A DNA stretch of 64,000 nucleotides. It comes from Planctomycetota bacterium (GTDB lineage Bacteria; Planctomycetota; Phycisphaerae; WQYP01). Below, one piece after another: positions 54,052-59,650 of this stretch; the stretch's first letter is position 1, and each line of letters opens with the position of its first letter. The notes below the pieces were generated by a model, which worked only from the letters and a program-made list of their open reading frames with translations, did not search any database and had not been told where the DNA came from. The stretch spans positions 1 through 64,000 of the forward strand of contig JAJZDN010000005.1 in the NCBI GenBank assembly GCA_021805985.1. The letters run 5' to 3'. The translations under genes and the position numbers were made by a program.

Positions 54052-54905
54052 AGAACTTCCTTTCCAGGAGCCATAAATTAATCCATCCCTTTCAAGCACA
54101 TTACAAATGCCATACCAGAAAAAAATAGCGAAAAGATGGCGTTTTTCAGGGGTCAGTTGCCGCCGGGGCAGTCATGAAACTGCCGATATGGCAGAAAGGA
54201 ATTTTGAGACGAGCCTACCTTGCAATCTCAGTAGCCGGGGATGCAATCCACAACGGACCGCAAAAAGACCGCTGATTACGCCGATCACGCGGATAAACAC
54301 CGGGCTTCCGTGCTTTGAGACTTCCCTACGCATGACGCACAGCACTGTCTGAGAATCGCCACGGCAATCGCGGATAGTAACCCCACCGGTGAAAATGCCG
54401 GTCCCTGAAATAGCGCCCAATTTCCGACCGCAACACCGCTATTCACTTGCGCGCGTATACCAACCCCAATCCCCGCTGTAACCCGTAACCCCGTATAGCA
54501 TCTCGCATCCCGCAGTTAGCATTCCCGGCGGCTCCAAAGCATTCTAAGTCCTAACTCCCAACTCCTGAATACTCGTCCCGCCCCTGTCCCCTGTAACCTC
54601 GGTGGTGGGTCGTTGTGGTGAAATTGTTCATTCAGTGCAACCATTATCCGCCTGAAAAAAGGCCGAAGTTGTTTTCACTCATGAATTCTACATTTTCCGC
54701 CGCAGTGGGCCAAGCGGACCCAAAACGAACCCACGCCGGTCAGCACTCATGCGTCAATTCACTTCACCCTATTTCCGCGCCCATCCGTCGAATCGGTGGA
54801 TGTTCCCTTTTTGTGTGCCTTAAGCTTCCCCGTTTCTCTTCCTCTTGGGAAAGCCCGGGAATATTACATATCTGTTGCTGTGGATTAATTCGTGATCTTC
54901 TATAT
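54052..54905. other. Gene-poor gap with low-complexity tract before the Rhs island
   Basis: No credible gene in 850 bases. Around 54430-54605 there is a repetitive C/A/T-rich tract (CCGTAACCCCGTA, CCTAACTCCCAACTCCTGAA) of a kind often dispersed in intergenic DNA of such genomes. The open frames at 54107-54352 and 54615-54926 lack binding sites and familiar motifs. It marks one border of the Rhs island. Confidence 0.5.
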
Positions 54906-55430
54906 TTATCCTTTGGAACTTCGTGAACAGCTCACGATTCCCAGGAGGCGCTTAATCTCTTCGATTGCCGATGTGCCGCCTTCGGCCACTTCGATGAAAC
55001 CTCCAACAACAACACACGCTCTGTTCAGCCACATTTCTGCGGAGATCACTGGCATATTATTTTTTGGCGCAAGCGTCAAAGAAAACGGGGGTATCATCTT
55101 GAGCACGATATTTTCAACCTCGGTTACCACTATCTTTTTTGTGAATGGCTCGAGTACTTCCGATGTTAGTTCCAATCCTCCTTGCCTCGCAAGCCGCGCG
55201 AGTTGTCCCGCGCTAAATAAGTTTCCGGCATCACGAATTGCCCGTAGCTCCTTTGCGACTGTTACGGCCGAAGCATTTCGGAAAAGGGTTTTATGGCTGA
55301 TATGGTAGGGCTGACGGTACTTTCCGGAGAGCAGTTGCAAATGCCGTAACTTAGTTAAGACATGCCTTCGTGTATCTGCCCCTTTGTAGCAAAAGCTTGA
55401 AACACGCTGTTTCGGGTTATTATTCTTCAT
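54906..55430 (-). CDS. Putative immunity protein of Rhs cassette 1 (174 aa)
   Basis: I know no named family. The ATG lies 11 bases inside the end of the Rhs cassette 1 gene and 7 bases after a strong GGAGGAGGG sequence, so it is translated with it. The protein is a paralogue of the one at 56963-57490. Both share DTRR, ELRAIRDAGNLF/EMLTAIRDMEAVF, a Q-AR/A-L run, an SAEMWL/GASIWL strand, VVGGFIEV/FVGGSISV, and a final EEIKRLLG/EAKRLLG helix. The position after a polymorphic-toxin tip suggests immunity. No signal peptide, so it should act in the cytoplasm. Confidence 0.7.
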   Translation of the reverse strand: MKNNNPKQRVSSFCYKGADTRRHVLTKLRHLQLLSGKYRQPYHISHKTLFRNASAVTVAKELRAIRDAGNLFSAGQLARLARQGGLELTSEVLEPFTKKIVVTEVENIVLKMIPPFSLTLAPKNNMPVISAEMWLNRACVVVGGFIEVAEGGTSAIEEIKRLLGIVSCSRSSKG

Positions 55431-57015
55431 CGCCGGGCCCTCCTCCATAACAACCACATTGTCTGACCCCCTTCTGAAGGCCAGTTATGATAACGGCCCA
55501 TTGGCAGCTCCTGCCACTCCCTTCCACACCGCAGGGGCGGCCGCGGTCGCAATCCCCCAATTCGCAGCCGCTTTCCCGCTTTCGCGGGATGCACTTCTCC
55601 TTCGCCGCCTGGCGGGCCAGATATAGCAGATATACTGTTAGTATGGCTGCCAAGATCGCCTCCGCCACCGCTTCTGGGATGGACTTTGGGAGCGGAACCG
55701 CGATTTTCCCCCACGGATCCACCGCGTTCACCGGGTTGCTTTCAACATATTCATACAAATTCACGCCGCCGACGTAGCCGATCGGATCTCTCTGAATCCA
55801 GCGGCCAAGAGTGGGGCGGTAGGTGCGATTGCGGACGTAATACAATTCCGTTTCGGGGTCATAACGGTAGCCGCAATAAATAATTTCATTCGCACCGTAG
55901 CCGGATTGCACGTCATCGTTGGCAAACCAAATACCATCCGCACCGGGGCCGGTGAAGATCAACGTATTACCGTAGGCGTCCGTGTCGTACGCCTCAACAA
56001 TGCCGCCGGTGGAATTCGTTAAGGCCACCGCTCTGAACAGTAAATCCTGCAGCAGATAATACGCGCCGGCGGCCAACGATTGTGTGCCGAGAATGGTGTA
56101 GGTGGTAAGCTGTATACATTCATCGATGTATGATCCCCAGATGTACTGCTTAATGGAGGTGTCGGTGGAGCCCGTTCCGCCAAAGGGGTCGCGTTCCTCC
56201 ACCGTTTGCCAGCCTTGCCACAGATTGTCGGTGGTTTCGTTGGGGATGTTGCCAGCCAGGCCGCCGTTAGAGATTGTTTTCCGCACCCTGCTATTCATGG
56301 CATCATATAGATATGTTGCGATAACCAAACCATCGCTGACGCGGTTAATCTGGATTGGCCGGTTCAGCGGATCATACGCGTAAATTAGTGTGCCGTCATT
56401 CTTAAGATTGCCGTTGGACGCCCCCGTTGCACCGTCATATACGAAGGTTACAGGGGACAGGCTAGAGGTTACAGACTGCGTGATTTCGTTGAGGTAATTA
56501 TGGTTTCTCTGATCGATCGTCTGGCTGCCGCCGACGGACATAATGCCCGTGGCTCGCCAGTTGCCCAAGCCGTCGAGATTCCAGTTTTCCTGGGTGTTGC
56601 TGCCAGGTAGGGCATTGGCTGCGGTTATGCCGCCACCACCGTTGTTTTGATAGCCCCCGGTGCTGTTCAATATCCCACGCTGATATTGCAACAGTCTGTT
56701 GATGGAATCGGCATTGTTGCCATTGGCGGTATCACGGGCAAGCGTGGTCTGGCCTAAGCCGTTGTACTGGAAGCTTTGGGCGGTGGTGCCGCCGATGCCT
56801 GCTGCCGGTGCGATGGTTGTATTTGTCCTTCGGCTCATAGGATCCCAAGTGTTGGAGAACACCGAACCATTTTCATCGGTGTATGTTACCACATCATTGG
56901 CCAAATCATACCCTCCGCCGAAAGCCCGCTTTTCCGATTCACATTGGGGCAAGAGGCCGTAGCTATTCGAGCCCGAGCAACCGCTTGGCCTCCAGGGCTG
57001 CGGCGCGATAGCCAT
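55420..57015 (-). CDS. Rhs cassette 1: truncated Rhs core with seven-cysteine tip (531 aa)
   Basis: C-terminal part of an Rhs/YD-repeat protein. YD-type repeats lead into the core signature LGRWIQRDPIGYVGGVNLYEY and DPWG. The tip after DPWG (about 95 aa) has a hydrophobic helix and a domain with cysteines spaced C-x8-C-x4-C-x5-C-x8-C-x15-C-x-C. There is no signal peptide or N-terminal shell. The open frame starts inside the previous partner gene, and a TTG after GGAGGG (VVTYTDENG region) is an alternative start. Relative to cassette 2, about 150 residues are deleted after DTANGNNAD. Confidence 0.75.
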   Translation of the reverse strand: MAIAPQPWRPSGCSGSNSYGLLPQCESEKRAFGGGYDLANDVVTYTDENGSVFSNTWDPMSRRTNTTIAPAAGIGGTTAQSFQYNGLGQTTLARDTANGNNADSINRLLQYQRGILNSTGGYQNNGGGGITAANALPGSNTQENWNLDGLGNWRATGIMSVGGSQTIDQRNHNYLNEITQSVTSSLSPVTFVYDGATGASNGNLKNDGTLIYAYDPLNRPIQINRVSDGLVIATYLYDAMNSRVRKTISNGGLAGNIPNETTDNLWQGWQTVEERDPFGGTGSTDTSIKQYIWGSYIDECIQLTTYTILGTQSLAAGAYYLLQDLLFRAVALTNSTGGIVEAYDTDAYGNTLIFTGPGADGIWFANDDVQSGYGANEIIYCGYRYDPETELYYVRNRTYRPTLGRWIQRDPIGYVGGVNLYEYVESNPVNAVDPWGKIAVPLPKSIPEAVAEAILAAILTVYLLYLARQAAKEKCIPRKRESGCELGDCDRGRPCGVEGSGRSCQWAVIITGLQKGVRQCGCYGGGPGDEE

Positions 57016-57490
57016 TTCCGCCCGGCCGCGTCACGGAGATAGATCCGCCCACGAAACTTACATCGCCTTCCAGCCAAATGCTCGCACCGAATTCGGGGAA
57101 ACAGTTCGACGAAGCCATCTCAATATCAAACCTCCCGATTTCCGTCCCCTCAAGGCGTCGGAGATTGACGACGCCCACCTCACGGGAGAATTTTTCGATG
57201 ACCGCTTTGCTTAGGTCGCCGCGCCCTGAGGATATTAACGCCGCACGTTGAGCCTCGTTGAAGACGGCCTCCATGTCTCTAATTGCCGTGAGCATCTCCG
57301 CGGTACTGCTGGCCGTGCACCCCCTGAAAAAGACTTTCTTCGATCGAACAGCACGGCTCATGTTGAGATCGCCCAGCGCCGCCAGCCGCCGCAATCTGCC
57401 CAGGAGATTTCGCCGCGTGTCGCCGTTGCGATAGCGAAATGCGACGATATACGGTATGGCGTCGGGTGTATGGGGCCTAGGATTCCTCAT
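56963..57490 (-). CDS. Putative immunity protein of Rhs cassette 2 (175 aa)
   Basis: Paralogue of the protein at 54906-55430. The start MRNPRPHTPD lies 14 bases inside the end of Rhs cassette 2, with GGAG 6 bases before it, giving the same coupled layout. A longer open frame extends upstream, but that part is a shadow of the Rhs gene. Motifs: YRNGDTRRNLLGRLRRL, EMLTAIRDMEAVF, FGASIWLEGDVSFVGGSI and EAKRLLGLE at the end. Soluble, with no signal. Function inferred only from position and duplication with its Rhs gene. Confidence 0.7.
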   Translation of the reverse strand: MRNPRPHTPDAIPYIVAFRYRNGDTRRNLLGRLRRLAALGDLNMSRAVRSKKVFFRGCTASSTAEMLTAIRDMEAVFNEAQRAALISSGRGDLSKAVIEKFSREVGVVNLRRLEGTEIGRFDIEMASSNCFPEFGASIWLEGDVSFVGGSISVTRPGGNGYRAAALEAKRLLGLE

Positions 57491-59462
57491 GGGCCGCTCC
57501 GGCGTAACATCCACAAATTTCAACGCCTTTGTGCGGCCCTGTGATGATTTTTTTCTTCTGGCAACTCCGCCCGCTGCCCACCGCCCCACAGGGACGCAGC
57601 AGGTCGCAGTCGTCAAATGAGCAAGGCTCATCACGACGATCCTTCGGCGGGCAGTAGGTATCGCCGGGGATCGAATTGAACACCAGAAACAGCCAAATCC
57701 AGTATGGAAGAAAATCAGGCGGAAGTTCATCCGGCGGCCCGACCGGCGCCGGTGCCGGTGCCGGCTTGAGAATTGGCGGAGGGGGCGCAATCGCCGTCGC
57801 TCCCTCGGGATCGGTTCGCACCACCGCCCTTCCACCGACATACTCATACAAATTAATTCCACCGGCGTAGCCGATCGGATCGCGTTGCAGCCAGCGGCCA
57901 AGGGTGGGGCTGTAGCTGCGGTTGCGCACGTAATACAATTCCGTTTCCGGATCGTATCTGTAGCCGCAATAAATAATTTCGTTGGCACCGTAGGAAGATT
58001 GCACATCGTCATCCGTGAACCAGATGCCGTCGGTGCCGGGGCCGATGAAAATGATTGTATTTCCATACGCGTCGCAATCATACGCCTCAACAACCGCGCC
58101 GCTGGAATTGGTGAGTGCCACCGCGCGGTACAGCAAATCCTGCAGCAGGTAATACGCCCCGGCAGGCAGCGATTGCGGCCCAAGCGTCGCCAGTGTCGTC
58201 AGCTGGATGCACTCATCAATGTACGTTCCCCAGACATATTGCCTTATGGGCGTATCGGTGGAACCACTGCCGCCGGCGGGGTTGCGTTCCTCAACACATT
58301 GGTTGCCCAGATACAGGTAATCAGTGGGGACGAGGCCTGAAATTACTACCTTTTGCATCCTGCGGCCAAAGGCGTCATACGCAAACTGCAAAATTGGCGT
58401 GACCAATGGACCGGGGGTGCCCACCTGAATGAGCCGATTTAACGCGTCACAGTGGTAGGAGTAAGTGCCGTCATTGGCCAGATTACCGTTACTTGCCCCG
58501 GCTACACCATCATATTGGAACGTCACCGCCGGGCCTGTTCCCACCGTCCGCTGGATAATTTCATTGAGCTTGTTGTGATTCCTCTGATCGGTTATCGCAC
58601 TGCCCGTGCCTTCGGGTGTGTATACACTGCTGGTCCAGTTACCCAGAGCATCGAGATTATAACTTCGGCTCTGATCCGTATTGGGTAACGCAATGGGCGT
58701 AGTAACGCTGCCACCGCCGGTGGCTAATACGCCACGCTGATAATCCAGGAGCCGATTCATGGAATCGTAGGAATCATACAGACTGCTGCGTTCTTCAGCG
58801 TGCAGGGGACGTTCAAAGAGTTTGTTGGAACTCTTATCATAAGCACTCGTGAAGCCCACCAGGACATTGGTGCCATTGATGAAGCGCTTGCCGATCATGC
58901 GGCCTGCACCGTCATACCCCAGTTGGTCTGTAGCAATACTTCCCCAGGCGGGTGTGGGCAGGCCGGATTGGGTCGCCGATCTGGTCTGGGCATCGTTCAT
59001 ATTGGAACACACCAAGCCATTACCCAGCGTTACTGTAGCTATTCGGTTGGCTCCAAAGTATTGCCAACTGGCGATCACGGCACTCGTCGCCGCCTCAACA
59101 ATCAGTTGGCGACGATAGAGCTTATCGAAGCTATTGTTAATCTGCCTGCTGTTGGGATATGTAAATTGGCTTACCGGCAATGACGTGAACGCATCATTGG
59201 TGACATAGCGTGTGTTGCCACCGTAGGTTTGTACTTCTTCCACAGTTCTTCCGATGGAATCATACACCATTGCTGCATCAGCGTTGCAGCCATTGGCGGT
59301 ATCACGGGCAAAGGTGGTTTGGCTTAAGCCGTTATATTGGAAGCTCTGGGCAGTCGTGCCGCCGATGCCTGATGCGGGAGCAATGGTTGTATTTGTCTTT
59401 CGGCTCATAGGATCCCAAGTGTTAGTAAACTTCGATCCATTGCAATCAGTGAATTGTACCAC
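57477..59462 (-). CDS. Rhs cassette 2: truncated Rhs core with seven-cysteine tip (661 aa)
   Basis: Several YD repeats (VYDSIGRTVEEVQTYGG, YDSYDSMNRLLDYQ) are followed by the core signature LGRWLQRDPIGYAGGINLYEY and a Pro-rich linker. A hydrophobic stretch (FLPYWIWLFLVF) comes next, then the same cysteine-rich tip as cassette 1: C-x9-C-x4-C-x5-C-x8-C-x15-C-x-C. The frame begins at a GTG without a Shine-Dalgarno sequence and lacks a signal and N-terminal domains, so it is an orphan C-terminal cassette. DNA around 59280-59430 is nearly identical to 56700-56850 of cassette 1. Confidence 0.75.
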   Translation of the reverse strand: MVQFTDCNGSKFTNTWDPMSRKTNTTIAPASGIGGTTAQSFQYNGLSQTTFARDTANGCNADAAMVYDSIGRTVEEVQTYGGNTRYVTNDAFTSLPVSQFTYPNSRQINNSFDKLYRRQLIVEAATSAVIASWQYFGANRIATVTLGNGLVCSNMNDAQTRSATQSGLPTPAWGSIATDQLGYDGAGRMIGKRFINGTNVLVGFTSAYDKSSNKLFERPLHAEERSSLYDSYDSMNRLLDYQRGVLATGGGSVTTPIALPNTDQSRSYNLDALGNWTSSVYTPEGTGSAITDQRNHNKLNEIIQRTVGTGPAVTFQYDGVAGASNGNLANDGTYSYHCDALNRLIQVGTPGPLVTPILQFAYDAFGRRMQKVVISGLVPTDYLYLGNQCVEERNPAGGSGSTDTPIRQYVWGTYIDECIQLTTLATLGPQSLPAGAYYLLQDLLYRAVALTNSSGAVVEAYDCDAYGNTIIFIGPGTDGIWFTDDDVQSSYGANEIIYCGYRYDPETELYYVRNRSYSPTLGRWLQRDPIGYAGGINLYEYVGGRAVVRTDPEGATAIAPPPPILKPAPAPAPVGPPDELPPDFLPYWIWLFLVFNSIPGDTYCPPKDRRDEPCSFDDCDLLRPCGAVGSGRSCQKKKIITGPHKGVEICGCYAGAAHEES

Positions 59463-59547: not shown

Positions 59548-59650
59548 TTTATTCATTACTCATTATTCACTGAGCGAAGCGTCGTCGTTCGTTAATCCGT
59601 GTCCATCGGTGTAATCTGTGGTTCCTCCGCCTCTGTGGCCTTGGCGAATG
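59548..59650. repeat. Dispersed-type intergenic repeat at the Rhs island border
   Basis: A tract with TCATTACTCATTATTCAC followed by TCCGTGTCCATCGGTGTAAT and CCTCTGTGG, which I associate with repeats scattered through intergenic DNA of Planctomycetota and Verrucomicrobiota. It forms the 3' end of the deacetylase gene, adding a non-family tail that includes GGGTTDYTDGHG. Copy number elsewhere cannot be seen here. Confidence 0.45.

Follow-up and report, generated by a model that had tools for sequence, protein, structure and literature searches.

A seven-cysteine Rhs tip and its coupled partner gene in two tandem orphan cassettes of a planctomycete: a putative new toxin-tip and immunity family

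Functional toxins and immunity genes are known from orphan rhs-CT/rhsI modules (Poole et al. 2011, PMC3150448), and DPXGX18DPXG has been described as the aspartyl-protease motif of Rhs (PMC10684867). The window analysed here (a stretch of 64,000 nucleotides; contig C54 of a planctomycete MAG of 4.68 Mb, 95.5% complete) contains two adjacent Rhs cassettes, each followed by a small gene. Their arrangement is that of the orphan rhs-CT/rhsI modules (PMC3150448), and judging from the sequence they are probably two tandem orphan Rhs-CT/immunity modules with a putative new toxin-tip and immunity family. On the minus strand, from 59462 to 54906, the order is Rhs1, partner 1, Rhs2 and partner 2, with the following features:

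57477 to 59462, minus strand: Rhs1, a 5'-truncated core with C-terminal tip (TIGR03696, core comparison)
57654 to 57794, minus strand: linker and short hydrophobic stretch of Rhs1, Pro-rich, behind a DPxG-x19-DPxG autocleavage-type motif
57480 to 57653, minus strand: seven-cysteine tip 1 (CPPKDRRDEPC...CGCYAGAAHEES)
56963 to 57490, minus strand: partner 1, a putative immunity gene, 175 aa, ATG at 57490
55420 to 56910 (start approximate), minus strand: Rhs2, a truncated core with C-terminal tip (TIGR03696, core comparison)
55594 to 55704, minus strand: hydrophobic helix of Rhs2, IAVPLPKSIPEAVAEAILAAILTVYLLYLARQAAKEK
55423 to 55593, minus strand: seven-cysteine tip 2 (CIPRKRESGC...CGCYGGGPGDEE)
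54906 to 55430, minus strand: partner 2, a putative immunity gene, 174 aa, ATG at 55430

Both Rhs proteins matched the Rhs-associated core TIGR03696 above its curated cut-off (E 1.3e-18 for Rhs1, E 2.6e-21 for Rhs2). Compared with the other Rhs loci of the genome, the core homology of Rhs1 runs from approximately 59490; it is preceded by a 39-base piece whose counterpart in a longer Rhs gene (L029) sits about 215 bases farther upstream, and beyond this piece the Rhs homology ends. The start of Rhs1 is a mechanical GTG at 59462 with no Shine-Dalgarno sequence before it, and a clear ribosome site is absent at the mechanical starts of both Rhs1 and Rhs2. The listed start of Rhs2 (57015) falls within partner 1, and its core homology begins only at approximately 56910, about 50 bases past the partner 1 stop; thus, both Rhs ORFs are truncated cores. 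The same comparison indicated an internal deletion in Rhs2 near 56707. As in an orphan module, each cassette is therefore an Rhs-CT fragment without the full core and with a homologous, overlapping small gene directly behind it. Scanned for promoters and terminators, the locus gave nothing above its shuffled versions. A 46-base intergenic stretch upstream of Rhs1 (window 59592-59637) has a copy of 93% identity beside another Rhs locus (C119), and the intergenic DNA behind partner 2 (54472-54803) is repeated at about 80-88% identity near the Rhs loci C33, C160, C1 and C163, with a further copy in a related MAG.

The reading frames, cysteines and spacings of the two homologous tips were found as an earlier note on this DNA had described them: C-x9-C-x4-C-x5-C-x8-C-x15-C-x-C in tip 1, and C-x8-C followed by the same spacings in tip 2. 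Searching with the tip gave three further copies, one in the same genome (C98), one in a MAG of the same genus and one in a MAG of the same family, the two MAGs being recorded as Planctomycetota bacterium and Phycisphaerales bacterium. Weaker matches in the class search (E 0.0006-0.1) were discarded as short and often running across stop codons. The motif CD-x2-RPCG, also pointed out earlier, holds for the tips of the window and is not invariant, being replaced by DCY-x2-RPCG in two of the three further relatives. The seven cysteines, and 16 further residues of the tip, do not vary across the five loci. Synonymous sites between the loci are near saturation (pS 0.61-0.82), and among the four closer loci tip dN is 0.09-0.25, with dN/dS of 0.06-0.17 (dS 1.3-2.7) in the computable pairs; comparisons that involve Rhs1 of the window span a greater distance (tip dN approximately 0.65), and the single computable dN/dS among them is 0.27. 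The tips are under strong purifying selection. Their conservation is far beyond chance, with invariant residues despite near-saturated synonymous sites and with the overlapping partner at all five loci, and the tip is a real, constrained domain.

Searches of Pfam, NCBIfam, PADLOC and the PDB agreed with the earlier statement that no named toxin domain is known with this cysteine pattern. Neither tip nor partner was matched by a Pfam, NCBIfam or PADLOC model above its cut-off, and sequence-profile searches of the PDB gave nothing for the tip and chance matches only for the partner. No relatives of the tip were found in viral contigs and plasmids, and none of the partner among phages and plasmids. 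The tip has no conserved histidine; with Asp, Arg, Gln, Lys, Tyr and Glu residues conserved, an enzymatic head is possible.

The partner follows the tip closely. At all three further copies a homologous partner lies directly behind the tip, and profile searches, run for the partner in 28 genomes of the order and for both tip and partner in about 400 of the class, returned the same five loci, with no other strong match, for the tip (E 1e-30 or better) and for the partner (E 1e-68 or better), so that tip and partner are co-inherited one to one (5/5 loci). The small gene had been reported to overlap each Rhs end by 11 or 14 bases, and checking the frames bore this out: partner 1 overlaps tip 1 by 14 bases, with GGAG 6 bases 5' of its ATG, and partner 2 overlaps tip 2 by 11 bases, with GGAGG about 11 bases 5' of its ATG. 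Across the loci the overlap is 11 bases at four and 14 at one, and GGAG or GGAGG stands just 5' of the partner ATG at every one of them, within the codons of the C-terminal CY(G/A)G region of the tip. Because the partner has its own ribosome site inside the tip gene, it is translatable even if the orphan Rhs is not, and the conservation of the last glycines of the tip may in part reflect this site and not protein function. Partner dN is 0.27-1.0 and exceeds tip dN in every pair, as is expected if the partner tracks its tip. The strict co-occurrence, the conserved overlap with its embedded ribosome site and the purifying selection on the tip support the layout of a toxin with immunity, which had been proposed before.

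In the class search the partner had two distant relatives, at L053 919-1779 (plus strand) and at L052 1474-2040 (reverse strand of the locus). One follows a glyoxalase domain in a fused protein, the other stands alone, and neither lies beside an Rhs gene. Both keep the core motif A-x2-N-x2-P-x-I/F-x3-W...GG. Weak matches in three genomes (G062, G325 and G159) were judged to be chance, that of G062 lying inside a TPR-like repeat protein. The best model of the partner, of good confidence, is an alpha/beta protein (pLDDT 83.5, pTM 0.78; the other four of five models were poorer), the structure search of this model against the PDB gave no fold match, and no membrane segment is apparent in sequence or model.

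The truncated or deleted cores, with no clear start signal, could also suggest that the cassettes are in decay and no longer have a function, and a like cassette elsewhere in the genome (C33, see below) has a stop codon within its tip. However, all tip and partner frames of the window are open, dN/dS is low at near-saturated synonymous sites and the ribosome site of the partner is conserved, and we regard decay as quite improbable. The Rhs part may still have been lost recently, since dN/dS and conservation average over long histories.

A hydrophobic segment had been described before each tip. In Rhs2 it is present as a helix, whereas Rhs1 has only a short and weaker stretch, FLPYWIWLFLVF, dissimilar to the helix of the other four loci; Kyte-Doolittle values over 19 residues reach 2.1 in three scanned loci and 1.1 in Rhs1. 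The tip model (mean pLDDT 69.5, moderate confidence) is built of a 29-residue helix, a second, short helix and a hairpin of two strands. Its structure matches, mostly methyl-CpG-binding domains and ribosomal proteins, were non-significant (E > 1) and were set aside. At C33 (L023 4555-5150, plus strand) almost the same helix, EAILAAILAAYLLHLARQAAKEKC, adjoins an Rhs fragment and is followed by a different, Cys/His tip (CNPCIPPVGT...QSPSPICKCF) that carries an in-frame stop codon. This Cys/His tip, which no Pfam or NCBIfam model matched, has relatives in several other families of the class and a small partner gene of its own, and at least one of the relatives has a partner gene resembling that of C33, as judged by eye. 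A common origin of the two kinds of tip was unsupported by profile comparison. Since an unrelated tip of this genome is also preceded by the helix, the helix constitutes a module of its own, and tip-partner specificity is not defined by it.

This bears on a variant of the toxin/immunity reading, in which the helix alone would be toxic as a pore former like Tse5 and the head would only recruit the immunity protein or stabilise the peptide. The predicted 29-residue helix, with its hydropathy of up to 2.1, is consistent with such a role, and pore-forming Rhs C-termini are known (PMC10684867). On the other hand, this helix also stands before another tip with another partner, which places specificity outside the helix, Rhs1 keeps head and partner despite its weaker and dissimilar stretch, and the partner has no apparent membrane segment; we thus consider this variant unlikely.

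The genome has approximately 20 Rhs ends. Those scanned share DPxG-x19-DPxG, with both Asp present in every one and a spacing of 19 versus the published 18, and after it they carry unrelated tips, many with a same-strand ORF close behind. C98 (L042 3705-10010, minus strand) has the homologous tip and partner on a near-full-length Rhs ORF of 2,101 aa, so the same tip is found on a full-length Rhs elsewhere, and behind this Rhs lies a further orphan cassette, whose tip is different. Its N-terminus is Pro/Cys-rich, with no recognised trafficking domain and no recognised domain except the RHS repeat. The models of the T6SS sheath (PF05943) and the VgrG-type spike (PF04717), both expected in the genome of a T6SS Rhs effector, had no match in this 95.5% complete genome, and both matched E. 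coli among the control genomes. Arrays of orphan cassettes, which are known for CDI/Rhs loci, and the 20 or so differently tipped Rhs ends strengthen the toxin/immunity reading further.

The earlier note also considered a surface or metal-binding role for the tip, which could then be an adhesion or surface head or a cap that binds metal on a planctomycete YD-repeat protein. It could be argued that the partner would in that case be a chaperone or maturation factor for, e.g., cysteine or metal chemistry. Seven conserved cysteines would suit such a cap and the hydrophobic helix could anchor the protein; that no toxin family was matched and no known delivery system was found also points in this direction. 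However, the tips are polymorphic behind a conserved core genome-wide, tip and partner stay intact in truncated cassettes, and the partner evolves faster than the tip and has a fold not recognisable as that of an enzyme or chaperone. Nor would a chaperone serving a single cysteine tip need to travel with each orphan cassette, and a surface or metal-binding role leaves the obligate partner unexplained, which makes this explanation very improbable.

Under the toxin/immunity reading, we infer toxicity, immunity, autocleavage, delivery and the role of the cysteines as follows. In a full-length Rhs of the C98 type the C-terminus would sit inside the YD-repeat core, which would cleave it off at the DPxG-x19-DPxG aspartyl-protease-type motif and so free a peptide of about 95 residues that consists of the hydrophobic helix and the 57-residue seven-cysteine head. 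The freed peptide would enter a target cell, the helix most likely serving membrane insertion or passage and the head, held by bound metal or disulfides, being the putative toxic part. In the producer, the partner, translated from the ribosome site within the tip gene, would be soluble in the cytoplasm and confer immunity by binding its own tip, and the truncated cassettes of the window could be a store of immunity and of spare tips for recombination. Against this reading count the lack of a match of tip or partner to any known toxin or immunity family, the two distant partner relatives away from Rhs genes (one glyoxalase-fused), the failure to detect in the genome a T6SS sheath or VgrG-type spike that would explain delivery, a tip-partner pair known from five loci only, and a protease motif spacing of 19 where 18 is published. 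More tentatively, the head may represent a new and very small class of Rhs toxin with a cysteine-bound (metal or disulfide) fold and no conserved histidine, unlike the known nuclease, protease and pore-forming tips; its immunity protein would have a new fold, and Rhs delivery in this planctomycete lineage would be independent of a T6SS. We hold this fuller proposal at somewhat less than an even chance.

The system itself is of a known kind, and what is new is the tip with its putative immunity family, an unusually small Rhs head among the polymorphic toxins. That a planctomycete of this lineage retains about 20 Rhs ends whose tips are exchangeable, although no T6SS was found, raises the question of Rhs delivery in the phylum, and the helix shared by unrelated tips sets a possible membrane or translocation module apart from the putative toxic head. 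With the orphan rhs-CT/rhsI and cdiA-CT/cdiI modules (PMC3150448) the locus shares tandem truncated toxin C-termini with an adjoining small gene, the absence of clear start signals and homologous tips on full-length proteins elsewhere. In contrast to those modules, tip and partner here match no family in the searched libraries, the homology extends far into the Rhs core, and the host is an uncultured planctomycete with no detected T6SS. The Rhs toxins with an aspartyl-protease plug (Tse5, PMC10684867; Tse15, PMC11461821) have the same YD-repeat core (TIGR03696) and DPxG...DPxG directly before the variable C-terminus, and Tse5 also has a hydrophobic C-terminal segment (PMC10684867), but the motif spacing here is 19 and not 18, the partner looks soluble, and the C98 Rhs has a Pro/Cys-rich N-terminus in which only an RHS repeat is recognised. 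As in the catalogue of polymorphic toxins of Zhang et al. 2012 (PMC3482391), whose passages on cysteine, zinc and CxC contain no family with the seven-cysteine pattern, the tips appear exchangeable, with one putative immunity gene each. There is also a likeness in layout to the Cys/His Rhs tip CLPCIPPVGT...H...QSPP..C.CFW of this class (C33, L084-L088): although it has no profile-detectable homology to the seven-cysteine tip and a partner of another family, it is of similar size, with cysteines at both ends and a C-x-C-aromatic end, and it has a small partner gene behind and, at C33, the same helix in front.
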